DNA of 64,000 nucleotides. It comes from Patellaria atrata CBS 101060. Its lineage: Eukaryota > Ascomycota > Dothideomycetes > Patellariales > Patellariaceae. Each line of letters starts with the position of its first letter. Position 1 is the first letter of the stretch. The position numbers were made by a program, and so were the translations under genes. The notes below the pieces were generated by a model that did not search any database, was not told where the DNA came from, and worked only from the letters and a program-made list of their open reading frames with translations. Below, piece by piece: positions 8,051 to 52,527 of this stretch. The DNA is taken from contig MU006089.1 of NCBI GenBank assembly GCA_010093705.1, forward strand, positions 2,219,561-2,283,560, written 5' to 3'.

Positions 8051-11000
8051 TTACGATTCGCTTGGCCTGAATTCGTCCTTCAAAACCCACCTGCCCCTGC
8101 CAGAGCTGAGTCCCGGTTCCAGGTTAGCGATCCGGCGGAGCAGAGCCTTGAACTCCTCGATCCTCGCCGCATCGCCGTTCATCTGGTACTGGAAGTGGTT
8201 CGTGAGCATCCTGGAGGGAACTGAGCCGCCATGGAGGAGGATAAAGTCTCGCAGTTGGGCCAAGACCACCGTGGGCGGCTGACGGTTTCCCTGTAGAGGA
8301 ATGGCGGGGCGGCCGGGTGGTCCGCTTCCTGGGCGATTGGAAACGTTGCGTTGACCGCTTGACAGACGCGATAGGACTGCTGAGGATGAAGGGCCGCCGC
8401 GGCCACCGCGACCACCGCCTCGGACTGCAGGTGGAACCCGTTGAGTTGCTTGTGGATTCGGACGCGATAGAACTGCTGAGGGTGAAGGACCGCCGCGGCT
8501 ACCGCGACCACCGTCGCGTGGTGAAGGTGGAACCCATTGCTTTGACGGAGGACGGCCACTGACACCAAAGGCACCAGTCCAAGTTGGTGTCCCTGCAGGA
8601 ACGGTACGAGCGATTTCAGCGTTGCGTTGGAGCTCTTTAGCTGCTTCTGCGGCGACGCGTCTCGCTTCACGCGCGATATCCTCGGGATCGGCCTCAATCT
8701 TACGCTTGTCGCCGCTGTTAGAGGCGAGGATGGCGTCGTGTTCGAGCGCGGACTGGACGCCATTGCCAGCGAAAATGGCGGAGAGGAGGCGGTCGTTCCT
8801 GGAGCATGCATTCTCTTGTTTGGTGTCCTCATTATTGCGAAATTCTTCTTCACGCGCAACGGCGTGGATGTCTGCAATCTCGGTGTCAGTGGGCGGTGTT
8901 GGGATTCCTTCGCTCTGATCTTTGGAATCTTTATTGGAGAATTTGACTTCCGTGCCCTTGAAAATAGTGCTGGTCTCAGTCTCTCCATCATCTGAGCCCA
9001 AGGCAAACAAGTCATGCAAATCGCGCAACTGAAAAGTCTGGCGTTGTTTTGGATCTCGCAAAATCTTGTTCGATAGGAACTGTTTGAAGATCTGACGATG
9101 ATAAATCTTCTCCTCAATAGTGCCTGCGGTCATGAGACGGTAGACCTCGACTTCCCTCTTCTGACCTAAACGCCATGCTCGCTCACGTGCCTGCACATCC
9201 GTCGAAGGGTTCCAATCGGGGTCATAGATGATGATTCGATTCGCCCCGGTGAGGTTCACGCCGAGACCTCCGACCTTAGTGGTGAGAAGGAAGACATGCA
9301 TTTCGGAATCGTTATTGAAATCATCTACCATAGTCTGCCTGTCTTTAATCGCCGTCTTTCCATCCATACGACAGTAATTGAAACCATCCATCGATCTGAT
9401 CAGCTTCTCTAAGATGTCTATCGTAATACGATGTTGAGCGAACAAAAGAGCCTTATACCCGCCTTTCTTCCACGTTTCAAGCAGAGCTTTGACGACGTGC
9501 ATTTTCCCAGACTTGCTAATTCGTCCATAATCATAGTCACTCTTCTTAGAGAGGTTTTTGTGGTCAACGAGATCAGGATGGTTGCAGATCTTACGAAGTA
9601 TGTCGACGCCATACAAGGGCTGACGCCTGCCATTCATGATAGACTTCATTTCTTCCGAATTTAGGAAGATCTCATATGACTGTCGTTGTATTTTGGTCAG
9701 TTTGCAGAACAAGACTCGCTCACGCTTCTGAGGAAGATCAGTCGCCACGTCGACCTTATAGCGCTGGAGAAGGTACCCGCTAATGGTCTCCTTCAAGGTT
9801 TCCGCACATTTTATCGCGGTTTGGACCTGGAGATTCGAGGCATTCGCATAGCCTCCTATCTGAATTGGGATTCCAAACTGTGTACGAAAGCTGACGAGAG
9901 TACCAAGGCGCATTGGAAATACGAAGTCGAACAACGACCAGAGTTCCGTCAAATTGTTTTGCATCGGTGTACCCGACAATATGATCCGATTGGGCGTTTT
10001 AAGCTCCTTGCAGTAAATCGTGATACCTGCATTCGGGTTACGGATCTTATGGCCCTCGTCTAGAACTACGTATTGCCACTTAGTAGGTATGATATACTCC
10101 GCATAGCTCTGGAGACCTGTATATGTTGTAATTAATACGTGACCTTCCTTTATCGCTTTATCGACAATATCCTTGGCCACATTCGGGAACTTAGACGACC
10201 TCTTCACTTTTTCGTATGAGGAACCGGCTAGCTCGTCTTCACGGCGGGTTTCGCTTCGAATACTTACCATACCACTTCCAGAAGAATGTAGGATGGAGAC
10301 TCGGAGCGGAGGCCACCAGCGGTGGAATTCATTTACCCATTGCTTCATGACCGTAGCTGGGGTGACGATAAGAACAGGTTTCGTGAGCATCTTGGAGTAA
10401 TGTAAACCAGCTATGAATGAGATGGCTTGTATTGTCTTGCCAAGACCCATCTCGTCCCCTATGATTCCGCCGACCTGTTGAGAGTACAACTCCGAGAGCC
10501 ACTTAACGCCAGTCTTCTGGTAATCGAACAAACTGGGATAGATATCGCCTGGTATGCGTAAGCCGCCATCGAGCGTGGTATCAGGTATGCTGGGGTGTGG
10601 TAAATAGCATTCCTCGGCACCGCTCTCGAGTGCCTCTTCAAAAACTCCCTCAGCTGTGCTGGAATGTCCTGTTTCCCTAGCTACCCGCCTCGCTACACTT
10701 CGCCGTTCAATCCAGCTTCCTACCCTTATCTGAAATACTTTCTCATTGCCATCATCAATACCAGTTAGGTCTTCCACTTCGTCAGAATGAAACTTCTTTT
10801 TTTCCTTCCCGGCGGCCTTGCGTTTCCCGGAAGCCGGGATGGTATCCATGGGGAACATATCTTCAAAATCAACCTCGGAATCTTCCGATTCTCCTAATGC
10901 AGCTAGCTGGCGATCATTTAGCTCGGGCTCAAATTCATCATCGGAGCCGTCTCCTATAGATTCATTCAGGGTATCTGCAGTGCCATCCGGACGCTTTTGC

Positions 11001-11785
11001 TTCTTGATTGGTCGTTCAGCTGAGGACTTAGTTGCCCTGACATCTTCAAATCCAGGCTTGGTGAGGTTGCGATGTGACCTTGGCTGTTCGGCGCTTGTGA
11101 CTATAGGGTTTTCTTCTTCAATATCACTAACATCATCACCCATCTCCGCGTCAAGCATTGCTTCCTCTAGATTTGAGAATAGCCGAGCAGGTTTCCGGAC
11201 CTTGGAAAAAGGAGTGATTTTGCCAGTCCGGATAAGAAAGTCCCTCTCAGATTCGTGAGGCAACCGACCCTTACAAGTTTCCACATTTTCGGATCGAGGA
11301 TGAGCGTGACGCTCATCGATACGACTTTGAATTTGCTCGAGTTCCGTGTTGATACCATCAAGACGAGTTTGTGTCTGGAGAATATCTGAGCGTATCTTGT
11401 TCTTAACTGCAGAGCTGCCAGGTTGTAACAGACGCCGTTCCAGCGTGTTTAATTCTCCCGTGAGTCTCAGTTTCTGTACTTGCGTCTTTTCTAAGCGCTT
11501 TTTATCCCGCTCGTCAGCTTGTTCGGTGAGAATTTGGTCCGCTTGACGACCAATGTCCCGCTCCAAGTCATCTTGATCGCGAACCGACGTTCCAAGCAAG
11601 GCGAGCCTTGCCTCACCATCCAAATGGCTTCCAGCTGCCTCCAAATTTCCATTCTCGTCCTCTTCATTGTTGGTGATGGTCTCTATCAGCGATGTAGGGT
11701 TTTCAAAATTGATAGGGGCGACTCCCACTAGCTGATGCCCACTACCTTCAGTCGAGTGGTCTGGGCATGTCCCTGATTGTGACAT
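8051..11785 (-). CDS. rad26: Rad26/CSB (ERCC6)-type SNF2 ATPase, transcription-coupled repair (1244 aa)
   Basis: Swi2/Snf2 DNA translocase that acts on stalled RNA polymerase II in transcription-coupled repair. One uninterrupted exon. The N-terminal half has a coiled-coil, acidic stretches, a KKQK basic patch and the Rad26-type segment HESERDFLIRTGKITPF. The ATPase core starts near residue 445 with DEMGLGKTIQ (motif I), followed by DEGHKIRNP (II), SGTPMQNNLTELWSLFDF (III), and in lobe 2 FLLTTKVGGLGVNLTGA (V) and ERAWRLGQKREVEVYRL (VI). The C-terminal tail carries two tandem RGG-rich repeats (about residues 1105-1180) and a final winged-helix-like segment ending in GRGRWVLKDEF. I start at the ATG at 11785 (MSQSGTC...) rather than the upstream non-conserved hydrophobic extension, which has the composition of 5' leader. 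A head-to-head neighbour, the GH93-like gene, shares the 5' region. Length fits the CSB family. Confidence 0.95.
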   Translation of the reverse strand: MSQSGTCPDHSTEGSGHQLVGVAPINFENPTSLIETITNNEEDENGNLEAAGSHLDGEARLALLGTSVRDQDDLERDIGRQADQILTEQADERDKKRLEKTQVQKLRLTGELNTLERRLLQPGSSAVKNKIRSDILQTQTRLDGINTELEQIQSRIDERHAHPRSENVETCKGRLPHESERDFLIRTGKITPFSKVRKPARLFSNLEEAMLDAEMGDDVSDIEEENPIVTSAEQPRSHRNLTKPGFEDVRATKSSAERPIKKQKRPDGTADTLNESIGDGSDDEFEPELNDRQLAALGESEDSEVDFEDMFPMDTIPASGKRKAAGKEKKKFHSDEVEDLTGIDDGNEKVFQIRVGSWIERRSVARRVARETGHSSTAEGVFEEALESGAEECYLPHPSIPDTTLDGGLRIPGDIYPSLFDYQKTGVKWLSELYSQQVGGIIGDEMGLGKTIQAISFIAGLHYSKMLTKPVLIVTPATVMKQWVNEFHRWWPPLRVSILHSSGSGMVSIRSETRREDELAGSSYEKVKRSSKFPNVAKDIVDKAIKEGHVLITTYTGLQSYAEYIIPTKWQYVVLDEGHKIRNPNAGITIYCKELKTPNRIILSGTPMQNNLTELWSLFDFVFPMRLGTLVSFRTQFGIPIQIGGYANASNLQVQTAIKCAETLKETISGYLLQRYKVDVATDLPQKRERVLFCKLTKIQRQSYEIFLNSEEMKSIMNGRRQPLYGVDILRKICNHPDLVDHKNLSKKSDYDYGRISKSGKMHVVKALLETWKKGGYKALLFAQHRITIDILEKLIRSMDGFNYCRMDGKTAIKDRQTMVDDFNNDSEMHVFLLTTKVGGLGVNLTGANRIIIYDPDWNPSTDVQARERAWRLGQKREVEVYRLMTAGTIEEKIYHRQIFKQFLSNKILRDPKQRQTFQLRDLHDLFALGSDDGETETSTIFKGTEVKFSNKDSKDQSEGIPTPPTDTEIADIHAVAREEEFRNNEDTKQENACSRNDRLLSAIFAGNGVQSALEHDAILASNSGDKRKIEADPEDIAREARRVAAEAAKELQRNAEIARTVPAGTPTWTGAFGVSGRPPSKQWVPPSPRDGGRGSRGGPSPSAVLSRPNPQATQRVPPAVRGGGRGGRGGPSSSAVLSRLSSGQRNVSNRPGSGPPGRPAIPLQGNRQPPTVVLAQLRDFILLHGGSVPSRMLTNHFQYQMNGDAARIEEFKALLRRIANLEPGLSSGRGRWVLKDEFRPSES

Positions 11786-12621
11786 GTTGGATACAGCGGC
11801 TAGGCTGTGAGAAATTAAATGAACGTCGATGCGTGCGCGAAGCGATGTTAACCAGTGGTTATTCGAAAGGAACGTTGTCGCGAAGAACGGGGTGGCGAGA
11901 GACGAAGTAAACAGTAGTAAACAAGCGGAAGTTTGAGCAAGATAGCTCCGCGACAATGTCGCTTATCGTGCCGTAGTGCCCCTCATCAGAAATTACGCGA
12001 GGGTTTGTGGAGCTTGAATACTCGAGGTTGTGAATAGAAAATGTGTGCGAAAGTGAATTGAAGAAAAACGCGCAGCAACGTGAATGTAGTTCGTCATTGC
12101 AGCCTTATTACGGCAGACCACGCAGGCCCTGTACGTCGGTGTCTCGGTTAGCTCTAGTGCATGATCACGTGTTCGGTAGAACTACGGATGAAGGAGCCGC
12201 CATCCCCTTAAACTCCATCGCCAGAAGGTAATTTGTCCCTTTCCCCTCATCTCAGCATCCTCACTTTACAAGGACTCCCATCTCTGTCTGAGCTTTCGGC
12301 TGAGCTTTGATTGAGGGATATCAAGCTTTAGTTTCTCCGTCCTGTCAGTCACGGTGATGGACGATCAATGGGAAGTATTGCACGTTTAGCCAATAATTTC
12401 ACCTTTTTGGCATCTCTCCATGTCAAGACTGTTCGATCTGAATATGACGGATTTACGTCTCTAAACTGCTCTTAATAGGTTTTACGAACTCCGCATATTG
12501 ATATTTTGCCATATACAGGGTAATTTACCTCCATAGCGTCTTAGAAGATGGTATATAAAAATGCACTCTCCTCTGGTCCTGCGATTACAAGTAAATCAGA
12601 AGTATACCATCCTCCGTCATC
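11786..12621. other. divergent intergenic region, rad26 and GH93-like gene
   Basis: About 0.84 kb holding both promoters. The first 170 bp could be read as an N-terminal extension of Rad26 but looks like leader. A TATA-like element for the plus-strand gene lies at 12552. No gene seen. Confidence 0.5.
12552..12560 (+). promoter_or_regulatory. TATA box of the GH93-like gene
   Basis: TATATAAAA lies about 62-70 bp before the ATG at 12622, the expected spacing for an inducible secreted-enzyme gene. Confidence 0.6.
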
Positions 12622-13746
12622 ATGCTCGGTAAACATATCACTTTCTTTTTTGTGGTTCTCTTTGAGGTTGTATTTGCGGCTACAATCTTTAAACCACCCT
12701 CCAATTATAAGGTTCCTCGTACACTATACGCCCGAACGCTACTACTTAATCAGACCGATAATGCAATTCTTGCGACTTGGGAAAACTACTCGCCTGAACC
12801 ACCATACTTCCCGGTGTACCAGTCCAAAGATCTGGGGAAGACATGGACGGAGCTATCAAGGGTAACGGATCAAGTAAATGGTTGGGGTTTACGATACCAG
12901 CCTCATCTATATGAGCTCCCAGTTCAGATGGGGAATTTCTCTGCAGGAACACTCTTGATGGCGGGGAGCTCAATCCCCGAGGACTTAGCTATAACACAGA
13001 TAGATCTCTATACTAGTACGGATAGAGGGTGACGTACCCATCACAGATTCTGGATTCCAGTATACTTACATCTGAACAGACGTACATGGACTTTTGTCTC
13101 GCACATTGCTCGTGGCGGACGTGGTCTTCCCAACAATGGGGAGACACCCGTCTGGGAACCCTTTTTGATGGAGTACAAAGGCAAGATGATCGTTTATTAC
13201 TCCGATCAGCGGGATCGTTCAGCAGGCCAAAAAATGGTACATCAGGTCTCCAGCGATCTGATCAATTGGGATACTCCGGTAGATGATGTCAAGTATAGCA
13301 CCTATAGCTTGCGCCCAGGAATGCCCGTCGTAGCTCTATTGCCCAACGGCCAGTATATCTATGTGTACGAGTATGGAGGGAGCCCTATCAAATCCTTTGG
13401 TATATACTATCGTATGTCAGCAGACCCACTCAACTTTAGAGCAGCACCAGAACAGGTCCTCAGAGCGACCGACGGAACAATACCGACTTCATCCCCTTAC
13501 GTGGTATGGACTCCAGCTGGCGGTTCAAGCGGCACTATCGTAGTAAGCGCCAACTCTCACTCGGAAGTTTTTATCAACAAAAATCTCGGTGCTGTGAATT
13601 CATGGGTCAAGATGGCGACACCCTCAAGCAGATCATACACTCGCAGTCTACTCACGCTTCCTAGCAAGAATGATATATTGATTGTGGGTGCCGGAGTGCT
13701 AAATGGGAACAACAATGCTGTCACTGCCGAAACGATCAGAGTTTAG
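12622..13746 (+). CDS. secreted Asp-box (BNR) glycoside hydrolase, GH93 exo-arabinanase-like (357 aa)
   Basis: Predicted secreted six-bladed beta-propeller enzyme. A signal peptide is evident (hydrophobic FFFVVLFEVVF core, cut near Ala20). Two Asp boxes of the S-x-D-x-G-x-T-W type are visible: SKDLGKTW at 68-75 and STDRGRTW at 132-139. The second is formed only after splicing exon 1 (12622-13028) to exon 2 (13080-13746) over a 51-bp intron, which supports the model. Segments such as GWGLRYQPHLYELP, LPNNGETPVWEPF and YYSDQRD recall GH93 exo-1,5-alpha-L-arabinanases, which release arabinobiose from plant-cell-wall arabinan; GH33-type sialidases share the fold. Choice of GH93 over other BNR families is from memory of the family, not a search. 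Length is near that expected for GH93. It suggests a plant-associated or saprotrophic fungus. Confidence 0.85.
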
Positions 13747-14031: not shown

Positions 14032-17000
14032 CTAAGTCTTCTTTCCCTTCCCCTTTTCCGCCTCACCCTTCAGCCCTCCCGCCTCACTGCTGACTCTCTC
14101 AGGCTCTATAACAGCCTCGACACAACCGCCAACCAGCCTTGCCCAAACTTCCCTACTCTCACCTTCCCCACCACTCAATGTCCCCTTGTCTCCCACGACA
14201 ACAACACCCCTTTTCGCCCTCGTCATCACGACGTTTATCCTCCTCAAGTCCTTCAAGAATCCCATCTCCCTGGACAAGTTGCACCTCGTCGTGGAAAAGA
14301 CAACATAATCTGCTTCCCGGCCTTGAAAACCGTCGATGCTTGAGATCGAGATCGAGGATGAAGATGGGATGAGGGAGGATAGGAGCGTGCGTTGTCGAGC
14401 ATAAGGGGTTAGGACGGCTATTGAGGGCGGAACGGGTGAAGATGGAGAGGAGGACTGGGAAGCAGGGCTCTGGAGGAGTTTGACGATGCGTTGACAAAGG
14501 AATGCTTGACCCTGATTTGATTTCGATGCGTTGCCGAGATCTTCGGGTGCGGAGCACTGCACGAAGACTCTACGGCCTGACACCGGCCAGGGAAACTGCG
14601 ACGGATGGAGTTCCCGCGCACTATCCGAAACACCAGTGCCAATTTTTTCGTAATAGAATTCCCTTGAGCTGAAGGAGGCGATATCCCTGTGCATGCGATA
14701 CTGCGTGTCGAGCATGATCTTGCTTACGTCCGGGCGTTCGGGGGCTTCGTACAGTCGCTCGAAGAGCGAGACGTCTAAACCGACTGCTAGAGCGCTCTGC
14801 TGCACCGTGGCACGCAACTGGACGTGGTCACCTACGATGACAGCGCGCTGGCACCCTTTAACAAGAGAAACGAGCGATGTTGGTTCGGTTTGCTGAGACG
14901 CTTCGTCGATGACAACAATGTCGAAATTTTCGTCGCGGAGGAGACCGAGTCCGGCGCCGATACAGGTACTGAAGATGATACGGCATTGTTTGATGAGCTT
15001 TTGGGCTTTGCGGCGAGCTTCGGGTTGAGCGTTGAGGTCTTTGCCGACCATGGCGTCGCAAGTGTGAGATTTTAGATCCTCTGCGACTTTTCTGACCTAG
15101 GCGATGTCAGTATCAGAGATAAATTTACTATTTATTGGATGCAAATTACATCTGTAGATACCCTTAGAGGTATTTCACCAGTTATCTCGGATCCCTTTTC
15201 GCTAATGAACTTCCGCAGTACATTATCAACCGCATTATGTGTTGGAGCGGCTACAAGAACACGCAGCGTTGGAGCCGCTATGAGCAGTTGCTGCAGAATC
15301 GCTACGACTGTGCGTGTTTTTCCAGTACCTGGCGGTCCCCAGAGGAACGTTAACGGAGAGGTTAGGGCCACTTCTAGAGCTCTATTCTGGCTATCGTTGA
15401 GCTCTTCATCTTTATGGTATTCAAGCTTCATTCCATACCGCTCAGTAGGCACATACGGTAACCCCGAGAGACTGAAGTACAGCGCGCAGCATTCCTCACG
15501 ACGAGTATACAGTGAAGTAACAGCATCGAAAGCGGTCTTCGCCGATGCAAAAGAGCCACACTTAATGACTGACCAAGAGCATTTCTCAATATAAGAAGGT
15601 AGATCGTGCAAGCACCGAAATACAACTTTACCGTGTTGACTGTTCTCAACAATCGCATCCATTGTATATGGCCTTGCTCCGGGTGAATTGGTCGGAATGC
15701 TGGCTGCTTTGAGCCTGACATGATCTCCAGTATTGAGGACGCCAGCAGAAGATGCATCGATGCGGAGACGACCTTCGACGTAACGTTTCTCATGATCGTT
15801 GACTGTAAGCTCTATTAACCCCTTTCTCTTAAGCCCACTTTGAGTCACCTCGTCAATATAATCCAGAGCAAGGCCAATGAGGTTCTTCACAAATTGTTTG
15901 ATAGCTGCTGGTCGGCCGATGAGTAGACGTATGCTTTCAGGCTCGAGGCAATTTTCACCCATCAGGAGGTCAAAAGCTAATTCTGATGAGCGCACAGTCA
16001 GTGCAATGAGCTCCACGGTCTGTGCGAAATCCTGGAATGAGATCTCCTTTAGTTCGGCTAATACGGCCTTGAATGGTTCAACTATAAGACCTTGCATGGT
16101 TGCGGCCGCGAGAATAAGAGATCTCAATAAAATGGGTGCGTCGAGCAGGAAGTCTTCCTGGAAATTAGTTTGGACCCCCTTCCATGTTTCAGACCTAAGA
16201 AGGAGGGCCGAAAGATAGGGGACATGTTGCAGAAAGTCCACTAGATACTTAATTAGGTCAATGAGTGAGAGCTCTTGGGGAATGTTATTCTTTGCATCTT
16301 CAAGCAAATGGTTGTAGATCGTCCTAATACGGGTTTTCTCGTCTCGATCTAGGAGCCAATAGAGTAGGTGATGTAACTCATTCATCGATCTAATATTCCG
16401 GAGCGCAGCTAGGTCATTATTCTTTACTACCTTAACCAAATATGGTGGTTCCTCAGTCCAATTGACGTTGCGCAGAGTAAGTACAGAGTACTCTCGAGCA
16501 ACCTCCTCGAACAGAGGAAGCGTTTCTTGAGTATCGATATACTGTAACCATAGATCTAGAGTAGCCAAAGCCCTGGTATCTCGATTACTGATGACGTAGA
16601 TCTCCTATAGATGGGATTAGCCTCCCCGATGGTTATTTAACCTATCAAGATACATACAGCTGCTTGAATCCCAGCGCGATTTAGTCTACCTACATGCCGT
16701 CGTATGGGCTCGCTTATCTTGTTCAAAGCTATACTCGCCACAAACTCATGATTAATTCCAGCATCAATGGTCTGTTGCTTTTGCCTTCGTTGATCACCTC
16801 TACTTGGAATGTTTTGGTAGCTAGACCTATCAGCGGCGGCACGATTAAGAAAGATCCAGGTATCTGCTCTCTTATCGTTGTATAGTTGGAATGTTGTGTC
16901 ATCACAATAAACTCGATAGTTCTTTTTTGTTGGGACTACACGATATTGCGCAGAATCGCTACCCTGCGAACGTGGTAAGGCGAAGACTCGAACACTACTA

Positions 17001-19401
17001 TCGACAACGCTCTCGGTCCTCTTTTCGATCTTGTTTGGAATGTATAGCGCCACTGTTAACCTTTGATCGACCTTCAAGATAATCATCTTCTTGTGGAATA
17101 GCTCTAGGATTTGATTTGTAGCACTCATAAATGATCCCATTCTATCTCTGGAACTATCGAAGACTCGTTTCCATCGCAACCCGGGGTAGTGCAGCTTGAA
17201 CTGAGATAATTCCTGCGAGTCAACAAGATTACTCTGAAGCATAGCATTCATGACTAAACATGATGATTCCATTGTTGGTGGAACCTTTCCTAAAGTCCAG
17301 GCTTTCTGTTCATCACTTAAGCTGTTGAAATCAAAATAGGGAAGCAAGTCTACAAAGTCGTAGTCATTTGCAGCGCACCATCTCAGAGCTATTAAAATAA
17401 GTTCAAACTCAGACATGGCGACATGATTCTTGCTCAAAAGAAACTGCATATCATCGAACGAATAAGTATTTTCAGAGAAATCTATTCGGTTTTTGATGAT
17501 TTGGGTGCCAGATTCGTGAAGAATATCAAGGACAAATTCCGGCTGATCAGGTCCGGGCTTTGGCGGGTCTTCCAATTGTGGTGGAACTCTGATGCGATTC
17601 CCGTCCACACATTGAGAAAACAGTCGGTTCAGCTGTTGGCATTCTGCGCTCATTGGACCTTTCAACCGGGCCCAGTCGAGGAATAGATTCTTTACACGCC
17701 CAAGAGACGCGTTAGAGTATCGCGCAAAGAACTCAATTCGGTCTTCCTCAGTCACTGCTTTGAATGTAACATGTTCCTTAGCGGCAGGATATTCCGCAGG
17801 TTCCGATACAGTACTTGGTACAAGGTCAGGATCCCAGCAAACAAAGACTACTGCAAAGGTTAGAAAATTTAAAATGCAAGGGTATGGAATTTCCTTACAC
17901 TTATCTCCATCTAGATCACCACCAGACATCATGTCTGCACTTGGTCTCTTCCCTTGTGTGGGAAAAACGATACAATCCACGAGGTGGGAGAGCTCCGGAT
18001 AATGTACCGTCTTGAATTTTTGTAAATCGCCCGGGTGCAAGCAAGGATTTCGAGTGACTAGCACTTCTGCATTCTTAAGCGTTTGAGGCTGACCGTCGAC
18101 GTCCATGGTAACTCGGACATAGCATTCACCTTGGCGAAGGATACCCCGAGGGTCACAAATTCCAAGGAGCAGTCTAGATTCCATGATGAGAATCCGAGAC
18201 CTTTGCTCATCCCTCTTGTTGAGCATCTTTGAATACTCTTGATTGACAAGCTTCTGCAGTGAGGTTTTGATTGAGCCCACGCCTTTGATAAGAAGTTCCT
18301 CTGCAAGATCTAAGCGGTCACAGAATGACAAGAACTGATAGGAAGTGCGAGGTTCCAAGAAAAACGCATTCGAGAGAAAGTCTAAATACTCAGCTTGCTT
18401 TCGAAGAAGGGTCTTGGTGGAGATTCCTAGAGCATGTAGTAATAGTATTACTTCGTCGTTCAAGTACCCAAATGCATACGGCTAGACTGTTAGCATCCAT
18501 ACCTCGAAACGTAGAGGGTTCCGATGGAGCTGATACTTACCTTTGAATATGCTACTGCAGAAAGAGATAGATCAGTGGCGTCGCGAAACTTTCTCATGGA
18601 ATCTCGGAATTGGACTAAAATCTGTCCTTTCAACAAGGGTTCCAGAGTCAAAACCCCTTTATAGCCACGGTATCTTATTTGATAGACGGACGGAAGATAT
18701 TTCTTATTGCGGAATGTAATATTTGACCCCTTGACAAGTAGTCTTGCCAAATGGGGTGATATGAGACCACAACCATCAGTGAAGGTATAGTCCTGGACTT
18801 CTATGTCTGCAATATCTTCGCATCGTGCTGGGTCTAGTTGTATGCCCATTTCCGTTGATGAAAACAGCAGTCCTATTCGCTTTGCTTTCTTTGCAGCTGT
18901 TTTCAGTTTCGAGAAGTCGCCCATAGACTCTACCTTTTGCTTAATCTCCTCTCGCGATGCAGCTAGGAGAAAGCAAGACCTTGACTTGAGCTGTGAATTA
19001 CTATGTCCGAAGAAGTTATAGTGAATATCATTGATAAAAATACCCCTTTGAAGGAGTCTTGAGATATAGTCTGCCGAGACTCTTGCTGGAACTGGCACCG
19101 TCTCATTCTGTGTCCCTTGGACTATCTGTCGTAACCGGAAGTCCGCAAAAGATATAAGTAGGATACTGGAAGAATGCTGGTTATTGGTAACTCGATTGGA
19201 AGGAAGAGTTTCCAAACGAATCATTATAGATTGCATTGATTTGTTTGACACGACGGATATGGCCTTGACTAATTTATGATGATCAAGCGCAAATGCTGTA
19301 GGAAGGTCATCGAGTTGATATTTCCATGATTGATCATTTACTTCAATGCGTTCCTGAAGAGTACGTTGGTACGCCCGAATGTTGCTCTTCTTAGGAGCCA
19401 T
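14032..19401 (-). CDS. fused RNA-dependent RNA polymerase and Upf1-like SF1 helicase (predicted 1717 aa, five exons)
   Basis: Exons in order of transcription: 19401-18541, 18481-17899, 17847-16658, 16604-15150, 15096-14032. All junctions keep phase and the sum is 1718 codons. Residues about 100-880 are a cellular (RDR/QDE/Rdp1-type) RNA-dependent RNA polymerase, with SNSQLKSRSCFLL, DGCGLISPHLARLL, RNPCLHPGD and the catalytic DLDGD (476-480) followed by FFVCWDPDLVP. Residues about 1230-1717 are an SF1B helicase: GPPGTGKT (1301-1308), DEAS (1427), GDHVQLRATV, DTQYRMH, DGFQGREADYVVFS and NVVMTRAKRG. The third intron (16605-16657, gtatgt...gctaat...ctatag) joins IQAA to EIYVISNRDT. Likely role: making double-stranded RNA for gene silencing, with the helicase clearing or engaging template RNA. 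The N terminus is short for a fungal RdRP. The start could instead be slightly upstream; two separate genes is the main alternative. Confidence 0.8.
16605..16657 (-). other. 53-bp intron joining the RdRP part to the helicase part
   Basis: On the minus strand it starts gtatgt, holds a gctaat branch-like site and ends ctatag, with phase 0 on both sides. Read without splicing, the RdRP frame runs six codons into the intron (VCILIG) and stops, so retention would give an RdRP-only product. This single junction decides whether the locus is one fused gene or two. Confidence 0.8.
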
Positions 19402-19694
19402 TCTTGTGGATGCTTGGAGAAATTGCTGAAAACAGACTATAAAAAAATCTTCGAGTTCAATGAGAATAGGAAGAAGGTAATCCAAAAGACAGATGCTGTA
19501 AGTGCAAACGAAGTGACTTATTTGAAAGATCAGATAGGGTATTTCTCCTCCACTTCAAACAAGCAAGGCTGAACCTACAGATAAGGTTACACTGCATGAG
19601 CGGGGAATAGGCAGAAGCAATCTTCCAAATTCGTGCCCCTGAAGTTCTTCGCATCTTCTAGTCAAGCACCGAACTATTCAAGTGGCTATTCAAT

Positions 19695-20354
19695 ATGGAG
19701 CAACAAGTCAGAATCTATATCATTGGTGCTCAGTGCACAGGCAAGACCACACTTATCAATGCGCTGGAAACGCACTTCAGCGAACCGGTTAACCGCGATT
19801 GGGACGGTAACTCTTCCAACCCTCCAAATGTTATTAAGGAAGTCGCTAGAAGTGTTCTTCGTGAGCATAGTTTTATCGCAAGCGACATCACCAATTCGCG
19901 GACCAGATGTCTCCAGCTCCAGGAACTCATTCTCAAGGCGCAACACTCTGCAGAATTAGAAACAAACTGGAGTTGGTATTTGTCGGATCGTTCTGGACTG
20001 GACCCCGTGGTGTATGCCACAATTTACGTTGGTCCAGACGAAGCGATGGCACTCATGGAGAGCCAGGAGTTCCAGGAGCTGAAAGAGAGGATGCGGAACT
20101 CATTAGTTATTCTCTGTGAAGCTGGAGTACTCTGGTTAACAGACGATGGAGTGAGGTTGATGCCGAAGGATAACGAAGACTGGATGCGAGTTCATCAGAC
20201 ATTCTGCGAGTTGCTAGTACTCAACGATATTAGGTATAACGTCATTTCCAAAGACATGACAAATCTCGATGATCGTGTGCAGTTAGTGACCAAGCTTTGG
20301 AAAAACTTCAACGTGGATACTAGGAAATTAAGCGGATACATTGAAATGGAGTAA
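19695..20354 (+). CDS. small P-loop ATPase, AAA_28 (NadR/Ttd14-like) domain (219 aa)
   Basis: Single-exon gene. A Walker A motif GAQCTGKTT lies at 11-19 directly after an N-terminal beta strand (VRIYII). The sequence WYLSDRSGLDPVVYA near residue 96 is a likely Walker B/kinase-like segment, and the whole length is one AAA_28-type domain as found in NadR kinase and in animal Ttd14. Such proteins bind and hydrolyse nucleotides; the substrate of fungal members is not known to me. It is divergent from the RdRP-helicase gene, with only 293 bp between the start codons, so the two probably share a promoter region. The ATG at 19695 is chosen because the P-loop follows at the normal distance. No membrane span or targeting signal is seen. 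Confidence 0.8.
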   Translation: MEQQVRIYIIGAQCTGKTTLINALETHFSEPVNRDWDGNSSNPPNVIKEVARSVLREHSFIASDITNSRTRCLQLQELILKAQHSAELETNWSWYLSDRSGLDPVVYATIYVGPDEAMALMESQEFQELKERMRNSLVILCEAGVLWLTDDGVRLMPKDNEDWMRVHQTFCELLVLNDIRYNVISKDMTNLDDRVQLVTKLWKNFNVDTRKLSGYIEME

Positions 20355-20949: not shown

Positions 20950-23019
20950 ATGGCGCAGCCTATAGTGATTAGGGCGTCATCCCGACCTCAAGGTCCTCCT
21001 AGAAGAGAACCTATCAAGCGGTTGATACTGGCCTGTGATGGTGTGGCTCATCATACTAGTCCTTCAGTTCCACCAGCTTGTACTTACGAAGTATGATAGG
21101 GACGTGGTTAAACTCCGATAACACAAAGTTAAACGGAGAACTAGCCATCCCGAGCAATGTGACTAGAATCACCCGAGCTATCAAGCCGGAGAGTTCAGAT
21201 GGCACGCAACAGGTTGTCTTCTACCAGGAAGGCATTGCAACCATGGGAGGTATCTTCACCAGGGTTGTTGGAGGTAAGCAGACAAGAGCTAGGGATGACA
21301 GGTCCGATTCAGATCTGATGCGTTGTATCAGGTGCGATCGGGGCGGGAGTCCAGGAAAATGTTCGAGAAGGCTATTCATTCCTATGCAATAACTACCATC
21401 CGGGCGATGAAATAATCTTGTTGGGTTTCTCGCGGGGAGCATTTACCGCTCGTAGTATCGCAGGACTGATAGCTATCATTGGTCTTCTCACAAAGAAGGC
21501 ATTAAACTACCTTCCAGAGATACATAGGGATGTCCGTAATAGAAGGAAACGAGACTATAAACCCAAGAACCCGGACATTCCTTTCTCTAATAAACCAAGT
21601 GCGAATGACCCAGCTTATGCTCTTGAACTAGAAAGGGCAAGTATCCTTATCGTCAACAAGTCCTTCATGGCTGATAATTAATTCAGCGAGGAATGACATG
21701 GCTTAACGTATCCATCAAAGCAATTGGTGTCTGGGATACTGTAGGAACACTCGGGGTGCCTCGCGTAGGCCTTTTAAACCACCTCCCTATCCAGATGGAT
21801 GATTCCACACACTTCGAAGACACCAAATTAGGAAATCACATTGAAAACGCTTTTCAAGCTCTAGCATTGGATGAAGAGCGCACCAATTTTGCTCCATCTC
21901 TTTGGGAGAAGCCTCCAGGCTGTACAACAGTATACCTCCATTTCGTTGCTCTAAACCCCTCCCTCCAACACCCTGATGGCCCCTATCCCCACTTCAAAAT
22001 TTCTACCTTTATGAAACATATAAACTCTCTCGAACTGAATACTTTGCATTTTTCATATCTCCTATTTTCATCTCTTTATCACACTTCCTCCCCCTAATGC
22101 CTCCATCTCCCACTAACCCCTCTCCAAACAGACCCTCCGCCAAGTCTGGTTCCCCGGCGTTCACTCTAACATCGGCGGCGGCTATCAAGACTCCCAACTC
22201 GCCAACATAACCCTCGCCTGGATGATGTCGCAGCTTGCGCCCCTCCTCTCCCTCAACTATGACTACATCCTCCGCGAGGAGTCCTCAAACGCCGCCTACT
22301 ACCGCTCCACGCGGCAGAAAATCCGTCCCTGGTCCTTCGGCCGCATCTACGACTCGCTCTCCGGCCTCTACAACCTCGGCGGCGGCACCGCCCGCACCCC
22401 CGGCACGTACTACGCCACAGACCCGCGCGATCTCAACCCCACCGAGCGCCCGCTCAGGAACACGTGCGAGTACATACATCCCTCGGTGCGGACGCGGCTC
22501 AGGCTGGGCGGGCCCGGGATGGAGGATGAGGGCGTTTACGGGCCTGAAGCTCTGAAGGACTGGCGCCTCGTCGTAGAGTACCCGAACGACGATCCGGACC
22601 ACGGCGACCCGGATATCTACTGGCGCGCCCGCTTTCCCGAGAAGAGAGTCAGCACGCGTGTGCTCCCGGAAACCCCGTTGTGGGACGTCGAGCGCAGACT
22701 GCTGAGCCGCGACCCGGAGATGATGGATTACGTGATGTTTCCGCCGCCGACGAAGAAGAGGGGGGAGAGGCCTGTCTCGCTGTCCGGACCGGCGAGCGGG
22801 AGAGACGAGAGAAGAGGGGGAAGAAGGGAGGGTGGGGCAAGTGATTACGGTATCAATAGGGAGAGAGATAGAGATCGGGAGAGGAGGAGGTCGGAACCCC
22901 CGCCCTCGAGCTATCAGGAGTGGATGGATCAACAGCGACAGCAGCAGCAGCAACAGCCACAGAGACCCCGTTACTCGGATAGAGATAGGCCTGAGAGGTA
23001 TTATGCGAACCTGGAGTAG
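20950..23019 (+). CDS. DUF2235 alpha/beta-hydrolase-like protein (566 aa, five exons)
   Basis: Exons 20950-21040, 21100-21273, 21332-21640, 21691-21929 and 22132-23019 join in phase. Exon 1 ends in LILACDG and exon 2 starts TWLNSDN; together they form the hallmark start of DUF2235 (PF09994). The nucleophile elbow GFSRGAFTARS follows in exon 3, AIGVWDTVGTLG in exon 4 and WFPGVHSNIGGGY in exon 5. The family has an alpha/beta-hydrolase fold and is related to bacterial type VI lipase effectors; fungal substrates are unknown. After about residue 440 the protein becomes a charged, disordered tail (R/E/D-rich) with a QQQQQQ run. Exon 5 is much more GC-rich than exons 1-4, and its intron (202 bp) is longer than the others. 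No signal peptide, so probably cytosolic. Confidence 0.85.
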
Positions 23020-49400: not shown

Positions 49401-52400
49401 ATGTCTACTGAAGTACACACCCGACAACCTGCCTCGCGCGGCAGGTCTACAACTCGTGGCGGTAGAGGTAGTTATGCTTCAAGGAGCGGTCCTCGAGGAG
49501 GAAATAGACATACCAACGGCGACTCTAAGAATGCGGTACCCGATGAAACCGATCTTGGTGAACTTGGAGAGCTGAAAAAGCAGTATTCCTCGCAATTGAG
49601 CATGCTTAAGGAAATGTTCCCCGATTGGGCAGACGTGGACCTCTTATTTGCAGTCCAGGAGACTGACGGTGACCTACAGCGCACCATTGACCATATCACT
49701 GAAGGTAAGAAAGTTATGGGGATGCAGACTAACTCGCAAAACTGATCCTACAATCTGATCTCTTACTGTCGCCGGGTTTTCTCAAATCTACATCGCTAAC
49801 TGATCTTTGTTAGGAAACGTTTCTCAATTTGCTGAGATCAAGAAGAAAACCAAAGACAGGGCCCGTTCGAAAGCGAAGGAATCATCTGCAGCAGCTCCAG
49901 ACGCTTCTTCATCTCGCCCAAGTCGTGGCAGAGGCGGCCTAGATAGCTCACGTGCTGGCCGTGGGCGAGGTGACCGTGGCGGACGAGGTGGTTTTCGCGG
50001 TAGCAGAGGAGGAGCTCATGCAACCACAAATGGAACCCGCACTATAGGTCAACCATCAGTCCCAACTACGGAATCATCAGCATGGGATACTCCGCAAACT
50101 GAGGCTGGCGGTGACTGGGATAAATCTGTACCTGCAGCTACAGCTGAGGCAAATGATCAGTCGGCTGCGCCAGAGGCTCAGAAACCCGCTCCAGTTCCTG
50201 CCGCCGTCCCGAAGAAGACCTGGGCGCAAATGTTTGCTCAACCTAAACCTGCTCCAATTCCGGCAAAGAAAGCTGCAGAAGCCCCTCAAGTTCCTGATGT
50301 CGGGCTTCCACCCCCTAGTGAGGACATTACAGCTCCAGAAGAGCAAGTGGAAGCTGCGATTGAAACGGAAGCGCTATCTATCCCACCGGTAGCAGACGAA
50401 GCTGCACCGGATGAGCCCATTGCCGAGACAACGGAACCTTCTATATCGACACCTGATATTACTGAGGATACGGCAGCATTGGATTTAACTCCCTCCAAAG
50501 ATGAACTGACCGTTGACAATGTCGAACATCTCCCAGACTCATCCCATCCGGTTGTTTCGGAGACGGTCGCGAGTACAGTCGCCAGCACTCGCGATGCGGG
50601 AAGCACACTCAGCGCAATTACACCCTCTATTCCACTGCAGCAACAACCGCCTATTGGACGGCCTCCTATGGGAGGATATGCCACGACCGCCTATAAAGCG
50701 ACCGCTACTCCGGGAACACGAAGTGCGAGCTATCAGCGTAGGCTCCTAGAACAACAAGAGGCCGTTGTCTTGCCTGGCAATCATGCTATAGACAAGGTGG
50801 GAGTTCAGTTTGGTAGCATGGGCTTGAACGGTGATTTGGATTCCGATACTCTTGATGTGGACGAAGATAGGGAGGAGGCAGAGACGCGTACACAACCCCC
50901 ACAACATTCTCCTACCCAGCAACCCAGGGCATCACTACCTCCAGTTCCTCGTCAACCGTCAGCTCCCACAGAGGCCCCTCAGCCGGAAACTCTCCCAACC
51001 CCTAAAGCTGCTCCTGGTCTTCCTTCTGTACCTCAGCAACATCCGCCACCACAGCAGGCTGCACAAAGTTCACCTCCAGCTCCATTAGGTTCTCAGGTAA
51101 TGTCACAGCAAGGCTCTCAAGGCGCACATCCTTACAGCCAATTTGGCCGTTATGGACAACCCAATCCAACAGATGCTTCAGCCCCAAGCCAGAAACCTTA
51201 TGATCCATTCGGTCATCAAGCAGCGCAGTCGAACCAATTTGAGGGGTTCCCAGGGCAATCAAGCGCTCAAAGTCAACAACCCCAAAATCATTCCCAGCAA
51301 GGTGCTTTCTCATCAGCTCCGTCGGATTACTCTTCCTATTACACTTCTGAGCAGCAACGGAATGCATACTCAAACTATTATGGGCATAATTATAACCAAC
51401 AGGGTGCAAGCGGTCAGAATGACAGTGCTCCATCTCAGCAAAGGGTGGGCAGCGCTTTCAGTGCTGCTCCTGGCGACTCGTCATATCCTACGAGTCAGCC
51501 GCAGCAGGTGAGAATAGATTCTATTCACAATACGTCATTTTCTCGTAGTCTTTTTCAAGGACTTGAATATATTGATCATTTATTGCCATCTTATCAGAAT
51601 AATTCTAACAAACGCAAACAGAGTCAGAGCCGTTACAGTGAAGCTCAAAATAGCGGTCACACAACTCCAAATCCATTGGTAGGTGGCCAAACTCAGACTG
51701 GAGCTCAATCTCAACAAGCCCAACATATTGGTCAGCAACCTCACGGACACAACAGTGGACAACATTTTGGTGGTTATGGCGCCCAGCCTTATTTCAATAA
51801 CCCACAGCAATACTACAATGCTTACATGAACCAGTACGGGTACGGTCAAGGCGGATATGGTGGCGGTCCATTTGGAGCTGGAAAGGGTGGAATTTATGGC
51901 CAACCTCACCAGTACGGCATGTCTCCACATGCAGGCTACGATCAACATTCCTCTTCTCCTGCAAATGCAGCTGCTTTCACTCAGTCATCCCTACACGGTC
52001 GTGACAGTGCTCTCGGCGGTGCCTTGGGAGACTATGGACGTTCTGGATCGGCGCAACCTTCCCAAAGTCAGCAGCACGGTACTGCTAGCGGATTTGGCGG
52101 CATGCACGATGTCTTTGGCAGCCGTGGTCAGGGTGGATTTCCCAGTCAAAGTCAAGGTTATGGTCAACAGCAAAGCGGCCAGCAATCCGGTAACGAGGAT
52201 TCTTTGAAGCCGTTTGGCGACACGAAGGCGACCGCAGGACCTAGTCCTTCATTAGGGCAACCACATCGTCCGAGCTCAGCCACAAATACCGCCCCTGGAC
52301 AAGGAGCCCAATCTGGATTGCCCCCACAATCGCACCAGCAAGGCTTTGGTGGATATCCTGGTGGACTTCACAACAACCAAGGCTCTCAATACGGTGGACT

Positions 52401-52527
52401 TGGGGGTCTTGGACATCAAGGCGGCAGCCAAGGACAAGGCTATGGTGGAGGTTACGGTGGATTCGGGGGTACCTACGGCAGCTATGGAAGTCGTGGTGGC
52501 TGGGGCTCGAACTACCCTAATCATTAG
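49401..52527 (+). CDS. def1: Def1-like RNA polymerase II degradation factor (CUE domain, 975 aa)
   Basis: Exons 49401-49704, 49814-51507 and 51598-52527. After an RGG-rich start, residues about 57-101 form a CUE domain (QLSMLKEMFPDWADVDLLFAVQETDGDLQRTIDHI), the ubiquitin-binding part of Def1. Next come basic and RGG segments (RGRGDRGGRGGFRGSRGG), a conserved KKTWAQMFAQPKP motif, an acidic/Pro-rich region, and a very long Gln/Ser/Gly/Tyr-rich tail (GQGGYGGG, GYGGGYGGFGG), prion-like in composition. In yeast Def1 works with Rad26 and promotes ubiquitylation and removal of stalled RNA polymerase II. The second intron (51508-51597) is exactly 90 bp, free of stops and in phase, so its retention would add 30 residues. 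The first intron is 109 bp and is needed for the frame. Length and composition fit filamentous-fungal Def1. Confidence 0.9.
51508..51597 (+). other. in-frame, stop-free 90-bp intron of def1 (exitron-like)
   Basis: It begins gtgaga after CAGCAG and ends ttatcag before an Asn/Lys-rich segment. If kept, it would encode VRIDSIHNTSFSRSL and a further 15 residues, unusually hydrophobic inside a Gln/Ser-rich tail. This supports intron status, while retention stays possible without a frame break. Confidence 0.75.

Follow-up and report, generated by a model that had tools for sequence, protein, structure and literature searches.

Introduction

Several described systems join an RNA-dependent RNA polymerase (RdRP) to a helicase, either within one polypeptide or as partners, and the closest to the gene analysed here is FgRdRp5 (FGSG_09076) from Fusarium graminearum. 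A C-terminal DEAD-like helicase plus AAA domains were reported for this protein in 2015 (PMC4515635), and its boundaries were given in 2024 as DEXDc at residues 1277-1478 and AAA (PF13087) at residues 1475-1677 (PMC11237814). The gene described here lies in a stretch of 64,000 nucleotides from Patellaria atrata CBS 101060 (GCA_010093705.1, contig MU006089.1, positions 2,219,561 to 2,283,560 of the forward strand), hereafter the window, and its predicted product consists of an RdRP followed by a helicase. The source genome, which contains the window, comprises 28.3 Mb in 46 contigs.

According to the 2024 study, FgRdRp5 branches apart from the relatives of QDE-1, SAD-1 and RRP-3, and its gene is induced about 10-fold in sexual development. 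Its deletion reduces ascospore discharge to 47.6% of the wild type and lowers the Dicer-dependent exonic small interfering RNAs (ex-siRNAs), with a decrease of about 32% in the 5'-U reads of 21-25 nt. Ribosome biogenesis genes are enriched among the genes changed in the deletion strain, and NAM7 and a factor of nonsense-mediated decay (NMD) are put forward as possible network partners. In the available text, the expression 'UPF1-like helicase' occurs in a reference title only (PMC11237814).

Outside the fungi, the Branchiostoma lanceolatum protein BL02069 is predicted to contain a full RdRP domain with a preserved catalytic site together with AAA_12 (PMC6396948); this animal protein shares its RdRP plus AAA_12 content with the P. 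atrata one. Helicase-RdRP fusions are also described in oomycetes, Dictyostelium (RrpA-C) and cnidarians (the Hydra and Nematostella RDRs) (PMC4791657, PMC3661229). These have a DEAD-box plus helicase-C motor of superfamily 2 (SF2), which is N-terminal in the oomycete RDRs and stands ahead of the RdRP domain in the Dictyostelium ones, whereas the helicase of the P. atrata protein is C-terminal and belongs, with its AAA_11 and AAA_12 domains, to superfamily 1 (SF1). RdRPs are partnered with a helicase in RNA interference (RNAi) in Schizosaccharomyces pombe (Rdp1 and Hrr1) and Neurospora crassa (SAD-1 and SAD-3) (PMC9276528, PMC11237814), Hrr1 being the S. pombe orthologue of ZNFX-1 (PMC9276528). 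The funRNA paper counts 2-5 RdRPs per Pezizomycotina genome, and all four occurrences of the word 'helicase' in it refer to Dicer domains or to references (PMC4290597). No further RdRP-helicase fusion appears in the available parts of PMC10766185, PMC4870495, PMC6764512, PMC4182546 and PMC5805368, and wider records of the fusion may exist, for example in subscription papers or database annotation.

A predicted RdRP-helicase protein with the FgRdRp5 layout

The gene runs along the minus strand (19401-14032), where five exons can be joined without any internal stop. Once four introns of 59, 48, 53 and 53 nt are taken out, a 5157-nt coding sequence results that is in frame, ends in a single terminal stop and encodes 1718 residues, its start being the first ATG of its frame. 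Polymerase and helicase appear, with this predicted splicing, to be one gene and one polypeptide. Pfam places the cellular-type RdRP domain PF05183 at residues 60-593 (E 2.4e-46 and 2.2e-62 in two exon frames), AAA_11 at residues 1280-1463 (E 4.1e-17 and 2e-22 in the helicase exons) and AAA_12 at residues 1471-1668 (E 2e-48, helicase exons), all of them matches far beyond chance. The signature motifs are intact, namely GGDLDGD at residue 474, GPPGTGKT at 1302, DEAS at 1428, GDHVQL at 1453, QYRMH at 1496, GREADY at 1623, and TRAK at 1656.

Both helicase boundaries agree with those published for FgRdRp5 within 15 residues at all four ends, and the order of the parts, RdRP and then C-terminal helicase, is the same. 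This external match is the strongest support for a single gene. The RdRP-helicase fusion is already published, and the P. atrata gene is a further example of the FgRdRp5 arrangement. That another genome has the same layout, with almost the same distances between domains, suggests that selection maintains the arrangement and that it is neither a peculiarity of one species nor an artefact of the gene model. The first-pass annotation, made from the letters alone, had read RdRP and SF1 helicase motifs in one predicted gene, linked by a canonical 53-bp intron with phase 0 on both sides, and had proposed HMM searches for the two parts. Motifs and intron are there, on the minus strand, the in-frame model and the Pfam matches in the exon frames support the covalent pair, and its question of whether the fusion was already recorded is answered by FgRdRp5 (PMC4515635, PMC11237814).

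Between the two parts lies a linker, and for its residues 880-1265 the P. atrata genome has no second match at E ≤ 0.001. In exon 4, PF00270 reaches E 0.0011 and 19.2 bits, under the cut-off of 26. Exon 3 also gave a TLD match with E 0.006 and 17.0 bits, against a cut-off of 24.5, which was taken as chance. AlphaFold2 on exon 4 alone gave a mean pLDDT of 36.8, and nothing is drawn from that model.

Class of the helicase half

We compared the helicase half with eight other loci of the P. atrata genome that match AAA_12 (L033-L040), these counts being lower bounds. By Pfam, they comprise Sen1, Upf1, a Dna2-rift type, a SMUBP-2 type, Aquarius, the ZNFX1-type L038, and the loci L037 and L039. The genome's own Upf1, L034, has the UPF2-interacting domain (UPF1_Zn_bind) and UPF1_1B. 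L038 is a separate ZNFX1-type helicase, with a Pfam ZNFX1 match over the cut-off (4.9e-34) and ZNFX1 as its best PDB match (409.5 bits), whereas the ZNFX1 match of L037 is slightly below the cut-off (26.1 versus 27 bits) and L039 has no further Pfam name beyond helicase. A ninth locus with a weak AAA_11 match, L041, turned out to resemble replication factor C and is not among the rows of the tree.

In BLASTP against its own genome, the fused helicase matches Upf1 best (192 bits), followed by Sen1 and the Dna2 type (126 each), SMUBP-2 (119), L037 (107), L038 (69.7), Aquarius (58) and L039 (56). In a PDB search with its second half (a 334-residue query, mostly exon 5), Upf1/NAM7 comes first with 153.9 bits and ZNFX1 reaches 84.7. 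A tree of nine rows groups it with the Upf1, Sen1, SMUBP-2 and Dna2 types (support 90/93), and a sister relationship to L038 is rejected by the approximately unbiased test (p-AU 1.4e-8). This tree is a placement and not a proof, since many of its branches are long and all of its rows come from one genome.

With an AAA_11 plus AAA_12 core, intact motifs and Upf1 as its best match, the fused motor is a Upf1-like SF1 helicase. It is not Upf1 proper, which in this genome is L034: UPF1_Zn_bind and UPF1_1B are not among the Pfam domains reported for exon 4 up to E 10, a range in which the HMMER filters hide most weak matches (those above 0.1). The ZNFX1 domain PF25396 is not reported there either. 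The Upf1-like SF1 class, apart from the ZNFX1/Hrr1-type helicase of the same genome, departs from the DEAD-like or DEAD-box label that the motor bears in both FgRdRp5 papers. Such a class predicts a motor moving 5'->3', altering what experiments should look for.

Two of the compared loci, both on contig C11, have features of their own. L037 (2789-9253) holds a 2155-residue open frame in which CCCH zinc fingers and, at the C-terminus, an RZ-type zinc finger accompany the SF1 helicase core. In L039 (3668-8065), the SF1 helicase frame is closely followed by an AAA plus AAA_lid_6 frame, and the two may belong to a single fused helicase/AAA+ gene interrupted by introns.

Proposed role and the readings weighed against it

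The gene probably encodes a cellular RdRP of the FgRdRp5 type, with a C-terminal Upf1-like SF1 helicase, that makes double-stranded RNA (dsRNA) for Dicer. The two halves, with intact signature motifs in one frame, would synthesize and unwind RNA, respectively. From selected single-stranded RNA the polymerase half would make dsRNA for Dicer, and the helicase tethered to it would act on the same RNA, removing protein or structure. Upf1-family helicases travel 5'->3'. The motor might strip proteins from the template RNA before copying, or it might follow the nascent strand along the direction of synthesis and peel it off, so that the template could be used again; a motor running ahead on the template is less likely, since its movement opposes the 3'->5' reading of the template by the RdRP. 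The genome has an RNAi set that includes two matches to Dicer_dimer and three to Piwi, the third of which (L047, G000:C9:1060403-1061209) has a TAG and a TAA inside, owing either to introns or to a decayed Argonaute.

A wider version of this proposal, which we regard as speculative and rather unlikely, would see an ancient RdRP5-type lineage common to fungi and some animals (amphioxus BL02069) with a Upf1-class motor built in, uniting surveillance and dsRNA synthesis in one molecule. Its motor would follow the nascent strand and recycle the template, and each template would yield many copies with no need of a separate Hrr1-type helicase.

Several points weigh against a dsRNA-producing enzyme of the FgRdRp5 type. 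In F. graminearum, 75 of the 511 ex-siRNAs are equal or raised in the deletion strain, so the lowering is partial and the role of FgRdRp5 may be minor or redundant; its authors also point to rRNA processing and NMD (PMC11237814). Orthology with FGSG_09076 is argued from architecture and coordinates, and the splicing is predicted from sequence. In the nine-row tree, the node that puts the fused helicase beside Upf1 is weak (67/57), and the approximately unbiased test does not reject a clade that unites this helicase with L037, L038 and L039 (p-AU 0.117).

The Upf1-like helicase would also suit an enzyme working mainly in RNA quality control, in an NMD-like pathway or in rRNA surveillance, where the polymerase would mark aberrant RNA and RNAi would not be the main destination. 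The ribosome biogenesis genes and the NMD links suggested for FgRdRp5 are in line with such a role, but the Dicer-dependent ex-siRNAs fall when FgRdRp5 is deleted (PMC11237814), and the domain with which Upf1 contacts UPF2 is found in L034 and not listed for the fused exon 4. We therefore consider this reading unlikely.

Rdp1 and Hrr1, like SAD-1 and SAD-3, are separate polypeptides, and SAD-3 belongs to the same ZNFX1 type as Hrr1. The first-pass annotation had proposed that the locus is such a pair made covalent, an RDRC-like enzyme. Its covalent RdRP/SF1 pair is supported, the two activities are the same, and working like the Rdp1-Hrr1 complex would be a reasonable functional reading. Descent by fusion of the ancestral partner helicase is another matter and seems quite improbable. 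Even though the unrejected grouping with L037, L038 and L039 leaves some room for it, descent is not supported, since the genome has L038 as a separate ZNFX1-domain helicase, that is, a gene of the Hrr1 kind; Upf1 is the best match of the fused helicase, sisterhood with L038 is rejected, and no ZNFX1 domain is listed for exon 4 within the filter limits given above. In addition, the likely SAD-1-type RdRP, judged from its PH-like domain, is another locus (L042).

Gene structure and the polymerase-helicase junction

The exons and introns are collected in Table 1. Intron 3 had been seen before, and the other three are additions to the first-pass annotation. A scan of the gene for donor, branch and acceptor patterns gave six candidates, whose four donors are the same four that the reading frame needs; the donor pattern was fixed after the introns had been seen, and the number of candidates does not by itself reach significance (mean 2.5 and maximum 10 in local shuffles). 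Taken with a QDE-1-type RdRP, the short introns, whose branch sites resemble CTAAC, and the long frames free of introns point to a filamentous ascomycete.

Table 1. Exons and predicted introns of the RdRP-helicase gene (window positions).
Feature	Position	Strand	Description
Exon 1	18541..19401	-	Start codon and N-terminal part of the RdRP domain, residues 1-287
Exon 2	17899..18481	-	RdRP core through the DLDGD catalytic motif, residues 288-481
Exon 3	16658..17850	-	Residues 482-879: PF05183 match as far as residue 593, then the C-terminal region of the polymerase
Exon 4	15150..16604	-	Residues 880-1364: linker (as far as about 1280), then GPPGTGKT, which is helicase motif I, at 1302
Exon 5	14032..15096	-	Residues 1365-1718: DEAS, GDHVQL, QYRMH, GREADY, TRAK and stop codon
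Intron 1	18482-18540	-	59 nt, predicted
Intron 2	17851-17898	-	48 nt, directly after DLDGD, predicted
Intron 3	16605-16657	-	53 nt, GTATGT...CTAAT...CTATAG, phase 0 on both sides, links polymerase and helicase parts, predicted
Intron 4	15097-15149	-	53 nt, weaker donor GTAATT, predicted

We also scored codon usage, with a measure that penalises stops in the other frames and separates coding from non-coding sequence moderately (true coding median 0.09 bits per codon; stop-free wrong frames median -0.07, 95th percentile 0.06, 99th 0.07). Of the six frames, that of the model scores highest in 26 of 29 windows, each 60 codons long, both windows flanking intron 3 included; the misses are the last three (1561 to the end, the final one shorter), away from that intron.

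These results bear on a two-gene reading of the locus, in which the RdRP would end a few codons beyond residue 879 and the helicase, adjacent on the same strand, would have a start of its own. With intron 3 retained, the RdRP frame does stop six codons past the donor, the splicing of this intron is predicted, and the last 60 codons before it score 0.057 bits per codon, in the range where coding and non-coding scores overlap. However, a canonical-looking intron sits exactly at the junction, and the first methionine after it is residue 953, so a separate helicase gene would leave unexplained the 73 codons between the acceptor and that residue, which look coding (0.118 bits per codon in the first 60) and would be untranslated. 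Together with the one-protein layout and near-identical boundaries of FgRdRp5, this makes two genes highly improbable.

Relatives of the polymerase half

The genome has six PF05183 matches in four loci, namely the fused gene, L042, L043 and L044. L044 is QDE-1-like (332 bits to a QDE-1 chain), and L042 carries the fungal PH-like RdRP domain that makes it the likely SAD-1-type enzyme. In the stop-to-stop frames of these three loci, PF05183 starts at residues 484 (L042), 312 (L043) and 462 (L044), compared with residue 60 in the fused protein, which thus seems to be devoid of the long N-terminal region (300-480 residues) of the others. SAD-1 has an RRM in its N-terminal region (PMC4182546), whereas PF05183 alone, and no RRM, is listed for the exon 1 frame of the fused protein at E ≤ 0.001, although an upstream exon may exist.

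The fused RdRP is not of the QDE-1 type. Its catalytic core gives 106-109 bits to four RDR2-type chains versus 68-72 to three QDE-1 chains, and a tree of seven rows splits QDE-1 and L044 from the rest with support 100/100, leaving on the other side the fused RdRP, L042, and L043 with the RDR2 chains. There, the fused RdRP is a long branch that groups with none of L042, L043 and L044 and has no firm place among the non-QDE-1 rows. A special plant affinity has been stated for FgRdRp5 (PMC4515635). For the fused RdRP we rejected it, since L042 and L043 likewise favour the RDR2 chains (245-253 bits versus 43-66 for the QDE-1 chains), so that likeness to RDR2 is shared by the non-QDE-1 RdRPs as a whole.

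A scan of viral contigs with the 199-residue catalytic core, a method that finds close relatives only, found nothing, and in genome contigs 34 stretches matched a pattern and none was confirmed, as expected, since neither collection is meant to hold fungi. That the gene is a captured viral replicase, RNA viruses often pairing an RdRP with an SF1 helicase, can practically be dismissed, since the RdRP exon frames match the cellular PF05183 alone at E ≤ 0.001, with DLDGD, a membership that already refutes it, the helicase matches AAA_11/AAA_12, the viral scan was empty within its reach, and the gene has four predicted introns.

Genomic neighbourhood

Upstream of the fused gene lies a divergent neighbour on the plus strand (19662-20354) with an AAA_28 domain, whose ATG at about 19695 is some 290 bp from the start of the fused gene. 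Also on the plus strand, 22117-23019 holds the last part of a catalytic domain of the Tle1-like phospholipase type. On the other side, a plus-strand open frame at 13033-13746 is free of Pfam matches, and beyond it lies a SNF2-family helicase gene on the minus strand (8051-11962). Farther away, a plus-strand open frame of 907 residues (49804-52527) has no Pfam match at E ≤ 0.001.

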